Shown here: positions 15,737 through 20,395 of the stretch, one piece after another
How the letters are laid out: each line of letters opens with the position of its first letter
Numbering within the stretch: the stretch's first letter is position 1
DNA from: Acinetobacter ihumii
GTDB lineage: Bacteria; Pseudomonadota; Gammaproteobacteria; Pseudomonadales; Moraxellaceae
DNA: 64,000 bases
Direction: 5' to 3'
Assembly: GCF_900625095.1 (NCBI RefSeq)
Contig: NZ_LR130760.1
Span: 862,417 to 926,416 of the forward strand
Notes under the pieces: model-generated
Told to the model about the DNA's origin: nothing
Database searches by the model: none
The model's input: only the letters and a program-made list of their open reading frames with translations
Program-made: the position numbers and the translations under genes

Positions 15737-16702
15737 TTAAAATGGCGCCAAACTTCTTGAATAAACAAAGACCTGTTGATCTTTACGCATTAACAAACTG
15801 GTAAACTGACGTTTACGCTCACTGAGCATCACTTCAATTCGTGCCTGAAAATAACTGGATTTAACATCCAATAATGAGGTTACACTTTGTTTATTTTGCG
15901 GATCAATATTTTTAAAAGCCTCTAAAGACCAAAGATCATTGACACTTTGAAAATATTCCATCTTGGCGAATTTTGCTTGTATCTCCTGATCTATTGCATT
16001 CGCATCCAGCTTCTCATCCATACTTGCTAAAACCAATGCTGGCGCTGTATTCAGGTTTATTTTAGTCAAATCACTTGATGGCAAAGCACTGATATACGGT
16101 TTAATTAAGTCATAATTTTTGCCTTCAAAACCACGTACCATTTTCAACTCTTCAATACTGTGAAACTTGGTATTTGGAGCCAGATAAGGTCGTTGTAAAC
16201 CTTGATAATACGAGCTTTCCGCGCCCATCGCCCCGGTTGGTTGATCATCTGGATCTTGCCAGTCAATGACTGCCTGACTGAGTTCGGCTGGCAGACCCAC
16301 TCGAACCAGTAATTTTTCAAACCATCTTTGAACGTTTTCATTAGGTTTTCCATCTGCTTGAACCAAATTATTAAGATTGAATTTTCCAGACTCATCTTGC
16401 AAATAACCTGATACATAACCATCCTCAACAGGAAATGCGGGCATCGGTTTTGCCCATGTCTCACCCATATGATCGACTTGTGCACTACCCTGTGCATCTT
16501 GTACCAATAGTTCTGAAAAAAAGGCTTCTGCACTTTTCGCATATAACAATGATTGATTTTGACGAATCAAGTAGGCTGTATTTTCAGCCGTATTACTTTG
16601 ATGTCTGGCGATGCTTGCGGCCAGTATGGTCGCCAATGCCACCATGACCAGAATTGTAATCAGCGCAATTCCTTGCTGAGTTTTTCGCTTATTTCTGATC
16701 AT
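15737..16702 (-). CDS. gspK: Type II secretion minor pseudopilin GspK
   Basis: The large tip pseudopilin of the type II secretion system (321 residues). It has a short leader MIRNKRKTQQ, then G/IALITILVMVALATILAAS. As usual for GspK the hydrophobic segment lacks the Glu5 of other pseudopilins. The T2SSK domain is clear from GYLQDESGKFNLNNL, VIDWQDPDDQPTG and INLNTAPALVLASMD. It is last in gspH-I-J-K, 4 bp after gspJ. Its leader has normal length, unlike the three genes before it. Confidence 0.95.
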   Translation of the reverse strand: MIRNKRKTQQGIALITILVMVALATILAASIARHQSNTAENTAYLIRQNQSLLYAKSAEAFFSELLVQDAQGSAQVDHMGETWAKPMPAFPVEDGYVSGYLQDESGKFNLNNLVQADGKPNENVQRWFEKLLVRVGLPAELSQAVIDWQDPDDQPTGAMGAESSYYQGLQRPYLAPNTKFHSIEELKMVRGFEGKNYDLIKPYISALPSSDLTKINLNTAPALVLASMDEKLDANAIDQEIQAKFAKMEYFQSVNDLWSLEAFKNIDPQNKQSVTSLLDVKSSYFQARIEVMLSERKRQFTSLLMRKDQQVFVYSRSLAPF

Positions 16703-16706
16703 GCGA

Positions 16707-17564
16707 TTAATTTTCCCCTACACCACTATTGCTGGAATTTTGCCCTGAATCTGTATTTGAGGAATTATTGTTATCTTCACCTGTTTGAGCTGTATGTTGC
16801 TGTAAATTCGAAACGACCGCTTTGGTATCGAGCAAACTATAAATCCATTCATATTCAGTACCATCAATCGTGACATTGATTTTTAAACCTTGAGGCAATT
16901 GCTTTAGATTTGCCGACTGACTTAAATCAACACTGGCATCTGGCCATTGTGTTAGAGGCTGCGGATTAAGTAGACTGATTTGAAACTGCTCAACATTTTT
17001 TAATAAAATACTGGATTGTGGTTGAACATGATTGGGTAGATTTAAATCTGGATATTTCAAACGATACACTAATTTCTGTACCGCATCATAGCGATATTCT
17101 ACTCGCTCGTAGGGCGATAAACCCTGTTGAAGTGGATCAGTGACTCCGGCTTTACTAAACTGGAGCACATTATTATTGAGAGAAAGTGCAGGTCTTATTT
17201 GTCCATTCATATTGGCAGTCAGTGGAATGATCTGCAAACTATCCCTTAAAATCTGCTGGTAAGCGTCCTGTAAAATAAACAACCGTTGTTCATGCTGACT
17301 ATTACGATCTCTCGTTTTAACTAAATAATCGAAAACTTTCCAACCCAATGCAGACAAAACCGCAAAAATTGCAATTGCCACCAAAAGCTCAACCAAGGTA
17401 AATCCTGAGCGAGTGTAAGCAAAGCGAAGCTTTGCACGAGCGCAAGACGAGAAACTATACTTCGAGTGATAAGGTTTAATTCGATTGCAACTCGGTCGCA
17501 CCGCGACACCAAAACTTTGATCTGAGCTACAAGTAGATAACGGCACTTTTTGATTATTTTTCAT
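16707..17564 (-). CDS. gspJ: Type II secretion minor pseudopilin GspJ with repeat-expanded leader
   Basis: The processed part starts at G54/FTLVELLVAIAIFAVLSAL and continues as a typical GspJ (DYLVKTRDRNSQHEQ). The ORF has 285 residues and joins GspI and GspK in the pseudopilus tip. The ATG at 17564 overlaps the gspI stop by 4 bp, which supports this start. Between the first six residues (MKNNQK) and SGFTL lie about 47 residues encoded by repeat units, including GVAVRPSC, KPYHSKYSFSSC and ARAKLRFAYTR. No in-frame ATG, GTG or TTG lies close to the cleavage site. Whether the 53-residue leader is processed normally is unknown. Confidence 0.9.
   Translation of the reverse strand: MKNNQKVPLSTCSSDQSFGVAVRPSCNRIKPYHSKYSFSSCARAKLRFAYTRSGFTLVELLVAIAIFAVLSALGWKVFDYLVKTRDRNSQHEQRLFILQDAYQQILRDSLQIIPLTANMNGQIRPALSLNNNVLQFSKAGVTDPLQQGLSPYERVEYRYDAVQKLVYRLKYPDLNLPNHVQPQSSILLKNVEQFQISLLNPQPLTQWPDASVDLSQSANLKQLPQGLKINVTIDGTEYEWIYSLLDTKAVVSNLQQHTAQTGEDNNNSSNTDSGQNSSNSGVGEN
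17410..17530 (-). repeat. Repeat cluster inside the gspJ leader
   Basis: Contains the palindrome GCAAAGC-GAA-GCTTTGC (17419-17435), then the linker CGCAAGACGAGAAACTATAC (17441-17460) followed by TTCGAGTG, then a degenerate TCGATT-GCA-ACTCGG arm. A 19-bp exact match to the gspH copy starts TGCAACTCGG (17486-17504). It begins immediately beside the SGFTL codons. Confidence 0.85.
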
Positions 17565-18148
17565 TGTGTCTTAACTTGGTTGATATAATTAAAAAATACA
17601 ACGTTACCAACCCCAGATCCCACTTTGCCTTGTTCTGTATTAAATAAACTGACTTGTATTTCAATACGCTGTACTTTAGGGCTAATGGTTGATTCAGAAC
17701 GCTTATCAATTTGCCATGTTTCGCCTTGCGAAGTCACTTGTTTGGATTCTGTTCCAGTAAGCCATTGTTTATTAATTTCCATCTGAGCAGCTTCGTTCAT
17801 CGCGACGAATTGTGCTTTGGTTCTTAGCATGGCATTCGCCGTAGACTGAGTGTATTGCATCGCGACTTTAGTCAGCGCAATAGCCGCTGTTGCAAAAATC
17901 GCCAAAGCCACCATCACTTCAAGCAAGGTAAATCCTGAGGCAGGTTTTAATCGAGCAACGCTCGATCCTGCCGCAAGGCGAGAACTCCTACTTCGAGTAC
18001 AGCGACTAAAAAAACCACTTCGCTTTGCTACGTCTTGCGAAATGTATTTCTCATTTGCCGCTGCGCAAGACGAGAAACTTTTTTTCGTGTCGCAAAGTTT
18101 AAATCGAGCAATGCCTGATTCATCTATGCTGGGCTTATTCGTTTTCAT
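17561..18148 (-). CDS. gspI: Type II secretion minor pseudopilin GspI with repeat-expanded leader
   Basis: The pseudopilin core begins at G72/FTLLEVMVALAIFATAAIALTKVAMQ, a good GspI N-terminal helix. I chose ATG 18148 (MKTNKPS; 195 residues) because it overlaps the 3' end of gspH by 14 bp. A start at 18202 would add an unlikely hydrophobic stretch. About 60 leader residues are repeat-encoded: KSFSSCAAANEKYISQDVAK followed by RSGFFSRCTRS and SRLAAGSSVARLKPA. The stretch SFSSC to KRSGF recurs in GspH with two changes. The C-terminal domain is normal. Confidence 0.88.
   Translation of the reverse strand: MKTNKPSIDESGIARFKLCDTKKSFSSCAAANEKYISQDVAKRSGFFSRCTRSRSSRLAAGSSVARLKPASGFTLLEVMVALAIFATAAIALTKVAMQYTQSTANAMLRTKAQFVAMNEAAQMEINKQWLTGTESKQVTSQGETWQIDKRSESTISPKVQRIEIQVSLFNTEQGKVGSGVGNVVFFNYINQVKTQ
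17940..18110 (-). repeat. Repeat cluster inside the gspI leader
   Basis: Contains the palindrome ATCGAGC-AAC-GCTCGAT (17950-17966) and a diverged linker (CCGCAAGGCGAGAACTCCTA, then CTTCGAGTAC). A 69-bp block at 18011-18079 matches gspH 18789-18857 at 67 of 69 positions. Inside the block CGTCTTGCG (18031-18039) and CGCAAGACG (18064-18072) are perfect inverted arms. Confidence 0.88.
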
Positions 18149-18977
18149 TAATATTACCCAAATGATCAACTTCAATTGGTTCGCCGACAGGCTGTTGTTC
18201 AAAATAAAACTGAATTGTTACTGGCTTTGCCTCTCCATTTCCAAGCCAGATTAGTTTAGGTGCTTGTTGGCTGATTAAATCCTGATTTGTGCCCGTTTGC
18301 TCGTTCCAATCCTTTGCTTCGACATTAAACATCACATGCTCAGGTAAAGTGCGAACCGGAAATTCTGCATAAGGCTGCCACTTTTTATCTTCCTGAATAA
18401 TACGCTGATTGCTTTGCTGCTGATACTGCAAAACTTGGTAAGTAAATGGCGTAACATCTGTTGCACTGCGCGTTGCTAATGCCAAAATACGAGACTGATC
18501 AGTTGCCTCTTTATTTATTTTTTTTAAATCTAATATTAAAAACTCACGCGCTTGCATTGCTTTACGTTGATCAACACCATCAATATTTAACAGAATCAGT
18601 GATGCTAAAATCGCGATGATCACAATGACCACCATCAGCTCAATTAACGTAAATCCTGAGCAGCGATCAGCAAAACAACGTTTTGCCGCTGCGCAAGACG
18701 AAAAGCTATGCTTTGAGTGGCAGAGATTAAACCGAGTGCAACTCGGTCGCACCGCAAGACCGAAAACTTTGTTTGAGGTGCGATAAGCAAAACCACTTCG
18801 CTTTACTACGTCTTGCGAAATGTATTTCTCATTTGCCGCTACGCAAGACGAGAAACTATGTTTTGAATAATGAGGTTTTAATCGAGCATCTCTCGATCTA
18901 ACAAGCACCCTTTCACAACAAGACTGAGAAGCTTGGCTTCCACTACGAACATAAGACCACAAGCAATGCTTAGGCAT
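18135..18977 (-). CDS. gspH: Type II secretion minor pseudopilin GspH with very long repeat-derived leader
   Basis: The core begins at G108/FTLIELMVVIVIIAILASLILLNIDG and continues as a GspH-type pseudopilin. The ATG at 18977 (MPK) overlaps the 3' end of the TetR gene by 8 bp. About 100 leader residues are repeat-encoded. SFSSC occurs twice (residues 41-45 and 91-95), with EKYISQDVVKRSGF and GLAVRPSC between. The only alternative start I see near the core is a GTG at codon 77, still inside the repeats and without an obvious ribosome-binding site. The total of 280 residues far exceeds the usual 150-200. Confidence 0.88.
   Translation of the reverse strand: MPKHCLWSYVRSGSQASQSCCERVLVRSRDARLKPHYSKHSFSSCVAANEKYISQDVVKRSGFAYRTSNKVFGLAVRPSCTRFNLCHSKHSFSSCAAAKRCFADRCSGFTLIELMVVIVIIAILASLILLNIDGVDQRKAMQAREFLILDLKKINKEATDQSRILALATRSATDVTPFTYQVLQYQQQSNQRIIQEDKKWQPYAEFPVRTLPEHVMFNVEAKDWNEQTGTNQDLISQQAPKLIWLGNGEAKPVTIQFYFEQQPVGEPIEVDHLGNINENE
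18660..18965 (-). repeat. Repeat cluster inside the gspH leader
   Basis: The largest cluster. Three mini-palindromes: GCAAAAC-AAC-GTTTTGC (18670-18686), ACCGAGT-GCA-ACTCGGT (18731-18747) and ATCGAGC-ATC-TCTCGAT (18881-18897, one mismatch). Linker copies beginning GCAAGACGA or similar occur at 18692, 18755 and 18843. The 69-bp block shared with gspI is at 18789-18857. A shorter palindrome GAAGC-TTG-GCTTC lies near 18928. Confidence 0.88.
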
Positions 18978-19584
18978 ACTGTTCTTGAAGAAGATGAGGC
19001 ATAGCTAAAGCCTGATCAATATAGGCAATGCGCAAAGTATCACGCGACCCGAGATAACGCTGATAAAAACTTGAGTTTAAAATAGCGGCGCCACCATGAG
19101 TCAAGGACCATATTCCAGCCAAATAATCGCGGGTCGTCATTTGACTATTGATGGATTCAAGATAGGTATCTGTCATACCAATAATAATGCGCAGACGCTT
19201 TTTTCTAATCTGGTACAATTCCTGAAAAAACTGTTGTATCCCCTGTCCTGTAGTGGATAGTCGCTCTTCAATCTGATGAAACATGACCGTGCGTTCAGGA
19301 TGATGTAAATGATGCAACATAAAAAAAGCCAGATGTTCCTGAAAGGTCTTTTGCGTATCCTGAATCATTTCCAGCAGCATTTTTTCATTCTGGATTATCA
19401 GCAGAATATAGAGTTCATCTTTACTTTGAAAATGCTTATACAGTGTACCTTTTGCCAGATCCAGCTCAGCCGCCAACGCATCAAGCGTCATTCCAGCTTC
19501 ACCATTTTCCAGTAGCAGATCTTGAGCAACCTGAAATATTTGTACTTCTCTCGCTCGAAACTGAGCCTGACGATCCATCTTCAC
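18970..19584 (-). CDS. TetR-family transcriptional regulator
   Basis: 204 residues with an N-terminal TetR helix-turn-helix (about residues 10-55: ILQ/QDLLLENGEAGMTLDALAAELDLAKGTLYKHFQSKDELY, seen as LAKGTLYKHFQSK) and an unrecognised ligand-binding C-terminal domain. The track start is a GTG with GAGAG 7 bp upstream; an ATG two codons later is the alternative. It is the gene immediately before gspH and overlaps its start by 8 bp, so the regulator and the pseudopilins are probably co-expressed. Its targets are unknown. Confidence 0.88.
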   Translation of the reverse strand: MKMDRQAQFRAREVQIFQVAQDLLLENGEAGMTLDALAAELDLAKGTLYKHFQSKDELYILLIIQNEKMLLEMIQDTQKTFQEHLAFFMLHHLHHPERTVMFHQIEERLSTTGQGIQQFFQELYQIRKKRLRIIIGMTDTYLESINSQMTTRDYLAGIWSLTHGGAAILNSSFYQRYLGSRDTLRIAYIDQALAMPHLLQEQYA

Positions 19585-19621
19585 GCAATAACTCTCATAC
19601 TTAAGCTTTAGTTTAATGCAA

Positions 19622-20395
19622 CTACTTCATATTGAGAAGATTTTCAAAATTTTGACGAGTAATCGCCGCGATTTCTTCTACAGGCTTATCATATACATCA
19701 CTTAAAGCTTTGGCTACAAATGGCACATATTTTGGTTCATTTGATTTACCACGATACGGTACAGGCGCTAAATAAGGACTATCTGTTTCAATTAACACCC
19801 GATCAAGAGGTACTTGTTTAACCACATCACGCAAGTCCTGCGCATTTTTAAATGAAACGATGCCTGAAAAAGAAATATAGTAACCACAATCAAGCGCTGC
19901 TTTAGCCGTGTCCCAATCTTCAGTAAAGCAATGCAATATACCGTGGCTTGAACCTTCAGCCCGAATAATATCAATGGTGTCCTGCCTAGCCGAACGGGTA
20001 TGAACCACAACAGGTTTTTTGACAATTTTAGAAGCTGCAATGTGTCGGGCAAAACAGTGTTTTTGCGCCTCTACAAAATCGGTACTATGATAATAATCCA
20101 GTCCGGTTTCACCGAGTGCCCAAACTTTATCTGACTGTGCCAATTCGACCAAAAGCTCCGTGGTTGCACGTGCCATGGTGCTGGCATCCTCACAGGGATG
20201 CACCCCTACCGTATAGCCAACATCATCATGGCACGCAGCAATTTCGGCAAGGGCAATATGGTCATCTAAATCCACTGAGATACTCATAAATTTAGAAACG
20301 CCTGCCAGACGTGCCTGAGCCAAAGCCTGATCTAAATTACCCTCATAAGGGCTTAAATCCAATAAGGTTAAATGGCAATGAGTATCTACAAACAC
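19622..20395 (-). CDS. TatD family metal-dependent hydrolase (YcfH-like)
   Basis: A 257-residue TIM-barrel deoxyribonuclease-like hydrolase. Metal ligands are visible in DTHCHL (His6, His8), GETGLDYY (Glu near 98), the VVHTRSA and GILHCFTE histidines, and DSPYLAP. The start is a GTG with AGGAA upstream. It follows pilZ in the conserved holB-pilZ-tatD order. Members act as 3'-5' DNases or quality-control enzymes; the role here is undefined. Confidence 0.93.
   Translation of the reverse strand: MFVDTHCHLTLLDLSPYEGNLDQALAQARLAGVSKFMSISVDLDDHIALAEIAACHDDVGYTVGVHPCEDASTMARATTELLVELAQSDKVWALGETGLDYYHSTDFVEAQKHCFARHIAASKIVKKPVVVHTRSARQDTIDIIRAEGSSHGILHCFTEDWDTAKAALDCGYYISFSGIVSFKNAQDLRDVVKQVPLDRVLIETDSPYLAPVPYRGKSNEPKYVPFVAKALSDVYDKPVEEIAAITRQNFENLLNMK

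Follow-up and report, generated by a model that had tools for sequence, protein, structure and literature searches.

REP-like repeats lying in frame in the leader regions of pseudopilin genes of Acinetobacter, likely translated and predicted to be discarded

Short palindromic repeats have been described in and around bacterial genes. The Rickettsia palindromic elements (RPE) are small palindromes inserted into genes with the reading frame preserved, and one gene may contain several of them. According to the report of Di Nocera (2013; PMC3733652), the CGTC-tagged repetitive extragenic palindromic sequences (REPs) have stems of 8-9 bp with nearly always A-T first pairs, loops of 4-5 nt and mostly CCA tails; its main text mentions neither Acinetobacter nor Moraxella nor Psychrobacter, and REPs inside genes, as well as stop codons supplied by REPs, are already known from it. 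Here we analyze a stretch of 64,000 nucleotides from Acinetobacter ihumii (NCBI RefSeq assembly GCF_900625095.1, contig NZ_LR130760.1, positions 862,417 to 926,416 of the forward strand; hereafter the window), in which palindromic units occupy the leader regions of three pseudopilin genes. These units are probably REP-like elements of about 60 nt, placed in frame behind the start codon and ahead of the prepilin motif of gspH, gspI and gspJ, and they are likely translated and predicted to be discarded. A preliminary description of the window had read them as possibly an undescribed coding element with a conserved frame.

The genes lie on the minus strand in the order H-I-J-K and encode type II secretion system (T2SS) minor pseudopilins, an assignment based on gene order and family searches: the N_methyl domain scores above its cutoff in gspH, gspI and gspJ, the GspI equivalog above its cutoff, and the GspJ and GspH equivalogs below theirs (Table 1). 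gspK, which adjoins gspJ, contains no unit and no match to the type A model introduced below. The five palindromes of the preliminary description all lie upstream of the prepilin motif in gspH, gspI and gspJ, and the units in these three consecutive leaders end directly ahead of the prepilin-peptidase motif SG↓FTLxE. The window holds 27 CTCAGG sites on both strands, and a CTTGC[GA] core lies within 45 nt upstream at three of them, the three pseudopilin sites. Class III (prepilin) leader peptides are short, usually less than about 30 aa, and are basic and non-hydrophobic ahead of the cleavage site. The gspH leader comprises 107 residues before the glycine (motif ...DRCSG↓FTLIEL; glycine codon 18656-18654), the gspI leader 71 residues from a conserved ATG at 18148 (...KPASG↓FTLLEV; 17935-17933), and the gspJ leader 53 residues (...YTRSG↓FTLVEL; 17405-17403). 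Counted from the last ATG, GTG or TTG before the glycine, the distances are 32, 71 and 32 codons, respectively, and the leaders are not short by either count. Removal of the leader by prepilin peptidase is predicted from the cleavage motif.

On the gene strand, the unit of about 60 nt forms two predicted hairpins. A 5-bp palindrome with an ATA-like loop is followed by a spacer ending in CTTGCG, then by another palindrome, whose outer stem has 5 bp and whose inner stem has 7 bp, with a loop of 3 nt and a bulge of 4 or 5 nt, and finally by CTCA, usually with GG next to it. In pilin-like genes, this GG belongs to the conserved glycine codon before the cleavage site. The preliminary description had taken a 17-bp palindrome of 7-3-7 form, followed by a linker, as the unit. 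This palindrome is real, and it is perfect at 17419, 17950, 18670 and 18731, with one unpaired stem position at 18881; however, it is merely the inner stem of the unit, enclosed by the outer 5-bp stem, and the 5-bp hairpin lies in what had been called the linker. The linker recurs as described, in six 27-nt copies of CGCAAGACGAGAAACTATACTTCGAGT that are 67-100% identical to the reference (family D2). The stop-free peptides of the minus strand were also recovered, with SFSSC four times (two in GspH, one each in GspI and GspJ) and RPSC and KRSGF twice each. On the other hand, the single frame claimed for all copies did not hold. Within the window the linker is read as SFSSC and also, in another frame, as SRLAAGSS, FGLAVRPSC or FGVAVRPSC, and over the window and 75 relatives the 109 CTTGC[GA] cores in leaders are divided between two frames (69 and 40), with none in the third.

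Two unit types were aligned over many species, type A with 65 columns including flanks (32 copies) and type B with 66 columns (34 copies). They were modelled apart; a mixed alignment put the bulge gap in the wrong place. From 78 listed units, 63 were used and 15 ill-fitting ones were dropped, and three (L027, L028 and L036) were added by coordinate, giving 66 in total. The resulting models, R1 for type A and R2 for type B, were both trained on leader units, which favours leader matches. In a covariation test that favours the structure, since the structure was derived from the same sequences, double changes keeping pairing fill 77 cells in type A compared with a shuffled mean of 29.9, and 43 cells in type B compared with 17.4, and none of 500 shuffles is as high in either type. 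Slid structures, used as a control, give at most 19 (A) and 15 (B) such cells. The number of further pair types does not exceed the shuffles, of which 295 of 500 (A) and 486 of 500 (B) are as high. The stems thus covary, in agreement with the selection on structure proposed earlier. Folding by itself is weaker evidence: as single-stranded DNA, two of five stretches of the window clearly beat their shuffles (z of -2.93 and -3.03; the others -0.73, -1.58 and -1.03). In a comparison of positions 16500-20000 with Rfam 15, nothing scored above the gathering score, and the sole match reached 15.5 bits (gathering 53.5, E 0.44).

A search with mature GspJ as the query yielded 75 loci in named genomes, among which records close to the window may be missing. 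All are labelled Acinetobacter except one labelled Moraxellaceae bacterium, and the best match is A. ursingii (84%). Counting a unit as a CTTGC[GA] core in a leader of at least 25 aa, one or more of the three leaders contain units in 40 of the 75 loci, with 34 cases in gspI, 13 in gspJ and 4 in gspH. Leaders without the core have median lengths of 4.5 (I), 7 (J) and 10 (H) residues, as in MKSKGFTLLEV, and the longest leader of all, with units, reaches 135 aa. Of the 51 leaders that bear units, 50 have CTCAGG or TTCAGG just before the phenylalanine codon. Mature GspI measures 119-126 codons behind short leaders and 121-124 codons behind long ones, and the length of mature GspJ varies in both groups.

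Translation of the repeats, as the preliminary description had it, is probable. All 225 gspH, gspI and gspJ genes of the 75 loci, of which gspJ served as the search query, are open from ATG to motif with no stop or frameshift. Relative to the gspH stop, an in-frame gspI ATG (the one closest to that stop was taken) is found at position -8 or -11 in all 32 short leaders and in 43 of the 44 long ones, the window included. This kept overlap with gspH implies that the arrays lie inside the old reading frame, not ahead of a new start. In 59 long leaders, the other two sense frames carry 129 and 194 stops. Only 59 of 89 noncoding copies are open in the equivalent frame, so that a hundred open units in a row would be unlikely without selection, with the proviso that the copies are not independent. 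In addition, the coding frame gives leaders with +2.59 charges per 20 residues, and a 19-aa stretch above a Kyte-Doolittle (KD) value of 1.6 occurs in 0 of 54, compared with 30 of 53 in the next frame and 3 of 52 in the third. The leaders are therefore basic and non-hydrophobic, as class III leaders are.

Several observations weigh against this reading. Noncoding copies read open in the remaining two sense frames as well (33 and 54 of 89), which shows that the element is fairly open by itself, and the absence of stops in the coding frame is partly due to construction. An ATG, GTG or TTG lies within 20 codons of the glycine in 12 of 54 long leaders (ATG in 4 of 54), and translation of some could start inside; in GspG, a start codon precedes the glycine by 8 residues in the leader of L144 and by 5 in that of L219. 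CTCAGG also occurs in at least 13 leaders without the core, and 18 leaders of at least 25 aa (9 I, 7 J, 2 H) have no unit core; some of these look like decayed or other repeats. These observations touch on an alternative in which the arrays are 5' untranslated or translation-tuning RNA, with an internal start near SG↓F or with hairpins that set the amount of pseudopilin. The strong covariation of the stems is what such RNA would lead one to expect, and the internal start codons and the openness of noncoding copies fit it as well. However, the ancestral gspI start stays in place, the 225 genes are uninterrupted from ATG to motif, the last possible starts in the window are 32 (gspH), 71 (gspI) and 32 (gspJ) codons from the glycine, and close species differ widely in array size. 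We consider the RNA alternative improbable.

Twelve pairs of relatives, picked by hand and mostly of unequal leader length, were compared, and five differ by exactly 60 nt, that is, one unit or 20 codons: both gspI and gspJ in a pair of A. haemolyticus records (L031, L035), gspI of L028/L036, gspJ of L083/L087 and gspI of L078/L092. In all five, the extra unit adjoins the cleavage motif. The remaining pairs differ by 54, 75, 90, 114, 120, 3 and 0 nt. The element would join its target 5' of GG, rarely and mostly long ago. Since the last four bases of the unit restore CTCA↓GG, the next unit could enter at the same place, and arrays would then grow from the peptidase-proximal end. Inner junctions are 1-2 bases shorter than an intact CTCA would give, from which we infer frame-saving trims. 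Frame-keeping insertions in pilin leaders would survive because the leader is cut off, and the frames used, giving basic and non-hydrophobic peptides, would suit the cytoplasmic part of a class III signal peptide.

Growth at the motif is based on five pairs, which also counts against this proposal, as do the relations among copies. Of 132 copies among the matches listed, 81 have their nearest copy in another genome at the corresponding site, 47 at a different site of another genome, and 4 at a different site of their own genome. It follows that the family is old, that most copies were inherited at their present sites and that units are gained occasionally. The same counts are compatible with arrays that arose locally from a single ancestral insertion, through tandem duplication and gene conversion, instead of by repeated insertions of a mobile element, as are the lack of any transposase found and the even 58-nt spacing of copies at a noncoding site (L181). 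This alternative is rather unlikely, though more credible than the RNA alternative: arrays show an alternation of types A and B, units flush at CTCA↓GG are also borne by unrelated genes and tRNA sites, and two neighbouring genes are each one unit longer in one of two records of the same species (L031 versus L035).

Three candidates for the spread of the family were rejected. For a recent burst within single genomes, copies in the same genome (mean 0.570) are no more alike than copies at different sites in different genomes (0.576). For a REP-associated tyrosine transposase (RAYT) or other Y1 transposase as the mover, PF01797 is missing from the window genome and shows no correlation with the element across the genus; it occurs in 6 of 41 genus genomes, including all three without the element (G001, G020, G037), a further point against the insertion of mobile units, and none of the six Y1 loci of the genus sample contains an R1 match. 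For plasmids, only 6 of 72,556 plasmid records match, all of them Moraxella, and one match covers at least 80% of the query.

Table 1. Pseudopilin genes and repeat units in the window, with positions counted from its first nucleotide
Feature	Position	Strand	Evidence
gspK, minor pseudopilin adjoining gspJ	15737..16702	-	NF037980 301 bits
gspJ, minor pseudopilin	16707..17564	-	TIGR01711 63.7 bits, just below cutoff 64.85; PF11612, PF07963 above cutoff
gspI, minor pseudopilin	17561..18202	-	TIGR01707 55.6 bits, above cutoff; PF02501, PF07963 above cutoff
gspH, minor pseudopilin	18135..18977	-	TIGR01708 70.5 bits, below cutoff 80; PF07963 above cutoff
Type A unit at gspJ cleavage motif, ending CTCA↓GG	17404..17468	-	R1 75.6 bits
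Older degenerate type B-like unit, upstream part of gspJ leader, limits approximate	17469..17530	-	D1 repeat family with 18607-18777, 73%; read from sequence; no model match of its own
Type B unit at gspI cleavage motif, ending CTCA↓GG	17934..17999	-	R2 76.9 bits
Composite unit in gspI leader, with inverted core (CGCAAGACG ... CGTCTTGCG) inside	17994..18091	-	R1 34.8 bits; D3 repeat
Type A unit at gspH cleavage motif, ending CTCA↓GG	18655..18719	-	R1 89.2 bits
Type B unit, second from gspH motif	18720..18780	-	R2 52.4 bits, R1 33.2 bits
Composite unit, third from gspH motif	18772..18869	-	R1 47.6 bits
Oldest degenerate unit, imperfect palindrome 18881-18897, limits approximate	18870..18933	-	Direct repeat family D5; read from sequence; no model match of its own

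The leaders of gspH, gspI and gspJ in the window are connected by the repeat families D1-D5; these connections, the covarying stems and the genome matches of the model described below place the repeats beyond chance. The composite units of gspI (18002-18110) and gspH (18780-18888) form the D3 repeat, are 84% alike over 109 nt and have a common inverted core (CGCAAGACG/CGTCTTGCG). Perhaps they arose by insertion of a unit into a unit, or by conversion between gspI and gspH.

The model search suggested in the preliminary description was carried out with the type A model and finds 26 places in the window genome at E<=0.1, seven of them in prepilin leaders (six in gspH, gspI and gspJ, and one in a separate gspG). 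All four FTLxE prepilins of the secretion system (GspG, H, I and J) in this genome carry units, and the seven other prepilin loci contain no unit match; leaders could be read in 10 of these 11 loci, and the eleventh (L267) gave no motif in the script and no R1 match. Copies outside genes, anticipated by the preliminary description, are present and common. Units lie directly 5' of tRNA-Val (L105, match 1501-1565) and of tRNA-Ile, followed by tRNA-Ala (L111, match 1501-1563), and the tRNA starts at the GG. Similarly, at five loci of the genus (L178, L187, L189, L207 and L226) units are flush with the 5' end of a tRNA, the point at which the precursor would be cleaved by RNase P. The tRNA 5' ends with units are a possible RNA parallel to the pilin leaders. 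At several C-termini, the element gives the last residues and the stop codon, namely in ruvB, yggX, a peroxiredoxin gene and cysG (names read from the sequence). Another unit lies at the N-terminus of GluQ-RS (24.8 bits, E 0.003), and one lies upstream of a gene read as prs from its sequence. Four matches of about 71-79 nt follow one another at a spacing of 72-73 nt (G000:C1:475224-475511; L112, L116, L117 and L120), beside a gene whose sequence we read as that of a small membrane protein. Units that adjoin a functional product, yet are no part of it, would survive by the same logic as those in pilin leaders, which would account for the copies at tRNA 5' ends and gene ends.

Across the genus, 38 of 41 genomes match at E<=0.001. 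Leaving out the genome of the window, 174 distinct copies were classified among the matches listed, after 20 of 194 matches had been dropped as duplicates, including five of six identical copies in G021. Of these copies, 24 lie at a prepilin motif, 29 have the stop of a gene inside the element, 12 lie just past a gene end, 5 are flush with a tRNA 5' end, 4 are antisense and 68 are other or unclassified; the classes are mechanical, and the remaining 32, in other forward frames, mix inner leader units, chance open reading frames and four GluQ-RS N-termini (L224, L225, L238 and L248, named by likeness to L122). The unit-bearing prepilins are GspG, GspH, GspI and GspJ as read from the sequence, with the loci L102, L137 and L308 confirmed by family search, and elsewhere unit-bearing leaders belong to GspH/FimU-type, ComP-like and PilW proteins. 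In the 132 copies among the matches listed that end in CTCA or TTCA, the next two bases are GG in 95, TA in 16 and TG in 16. Where CTCA is followed by TG, an ATG is formed at the very end of the element (L168:1501-1566, L147 and L206), and that of L168 may be the start codon of a LysR-like gene.

The peroxiredoxin gene was compared across species, and 28 of 30 loci yielded its end. Some ends lack a unit (CAGCCGAATAAA and similar) and others carry one (CAGCCTGAGTGAGG), a difference consistent with joining beside CC/GG. At this one gene end (L274-L303), several different hairpin elements with CCTGAG and GCAAGACAAGC motifs are found in different species, hinting at a larger superfamily that shares these motifs.

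At E<=1e-4, matches extend to 69 of the 119 genomes, and 6 of the 15 genera, of the family. Outside Acinetobacter, 21 loci were read, and Pfam places four of them in or at transposase genes (L312, L320, L322 and L325); by eye, L328 and L329 also have a unit within or at the ends of insertion sequence (IS)-type transposase genes. In another genus of the Moraxellaceae, an IS3-type transposase (L325:844-1785) carries an in-frame type A unit between KGN and WDNAPTERF, and thus within a protein that undergoes no trimming. The repeat may be spread by insertion sequences. The units within IS-type transposase genes of other Moraxellaceae genera would also suit the view that the repeats are degenerate insertion sequences or miniature inverted-repeat transposable elements (MITEs) that turn pseudopilin genes into pseudogenes. 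This is very improbable, as the frame is kept in 225 of 225 genes, mature GspI keeps its length with short and long leaders, and by eye the aligned units and compared pairs have no terminal inverted repeats or target duplications.

Based on the results presented above, the preliminary reading is partly supported. Its likeness to the in-frame elements of Rickettsia is upheld; however, a protein-coding element with a conserved frame does not describe units that are also common outside genes, use two frames and, where coding in the window, lie in discardable leaders. It was to be given up if the repeat proved a known element, or if copies elsewhere lay in all frames without covariation; copies elsewhere do exist, and the covariation is strong. 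A wider proposal, to which we give about even chances, is that pilin leaders serve generally as a place of disposal for a coding repeat that renews itself: it carries its own target, CTCA↓GG, at its end, can be read in two frames as a hydrophilic, basic peptide, and has repeatedly colonised the leaders of many different prepilins in one genus, with leaders of up to about 135 residues and mature proteins untouched. The tolerance of in-frame palindromic elements has been a puzzle since Rickettsia, and the answer proposed here is that the repeats sit in a discarded peptide. If this is true, repeats can evolve in coding DNA with mature proteins untouched, and the known limits of prepilin peptidase substrates are stretched. 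It would also provide a natural leader-length series for studies of pilin processing, a warning that leader lengths of Acinetobacter pilins are easily mis-annotated, and the description of a Moraxellaceae repeat family.

Among the known systems, the RPE are similar in their in-frame insertion in protein genes with a conserved peptide, which is found here too, and the present unit likewise lies in frame inside an IS3-type transposase. It differs from RPE in its architecture (two palindromes, about 60 nt, CTCA↓GG end) and probably in its sequence, and many of its coding copies lie in pilin leaders; at the protein level, no RPE model is among the NCBIfam hits at 1e-3 for the three proteins. With the CGTC-tagged REPs (PMC3733652), the unit has in common a one-sided CGTC-like tetranucleotide, a mostly intergenic location near gene ends and the lack of a dedicated transposase. 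However, the tag varies here (CGTC, CATC, CGCC, CGGT), and the unit has a CTTGCG core, 3-nt loops, an outer stem and a second palindrome; the A and B alignments do not show the combination of tag, stem, loop and tail that defines those REPs. The GTAG REPs with RAYT transposases are small dispersed palindromes able to supply stop codons, as are the present units, whereas the consensus of both unit types has no GTAG and there is no Y1 link, with no PF01797 in the genome itself and no unit at the Y1 loci. MITEAba12 of Acinetobacter is likewise a short non-autonomous repeat in the same bacterial family, but its description (PMC6382973) gives it 111-114 bp, 16-bp imperfect terminal inverted repeats and 9-bp duplications, none of which is seen by eye in the present units. 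Searches of open-licence literature, which does not include subscription papers, brought up no prior description of the repeat and nothing recognisable as the element or as repeats in pilin leaders. The kind of element is thus known, REP-like and RPE-like, and what is new here is the family, its CTCA↓GG end and its concentration at prepilin cleavage sites.

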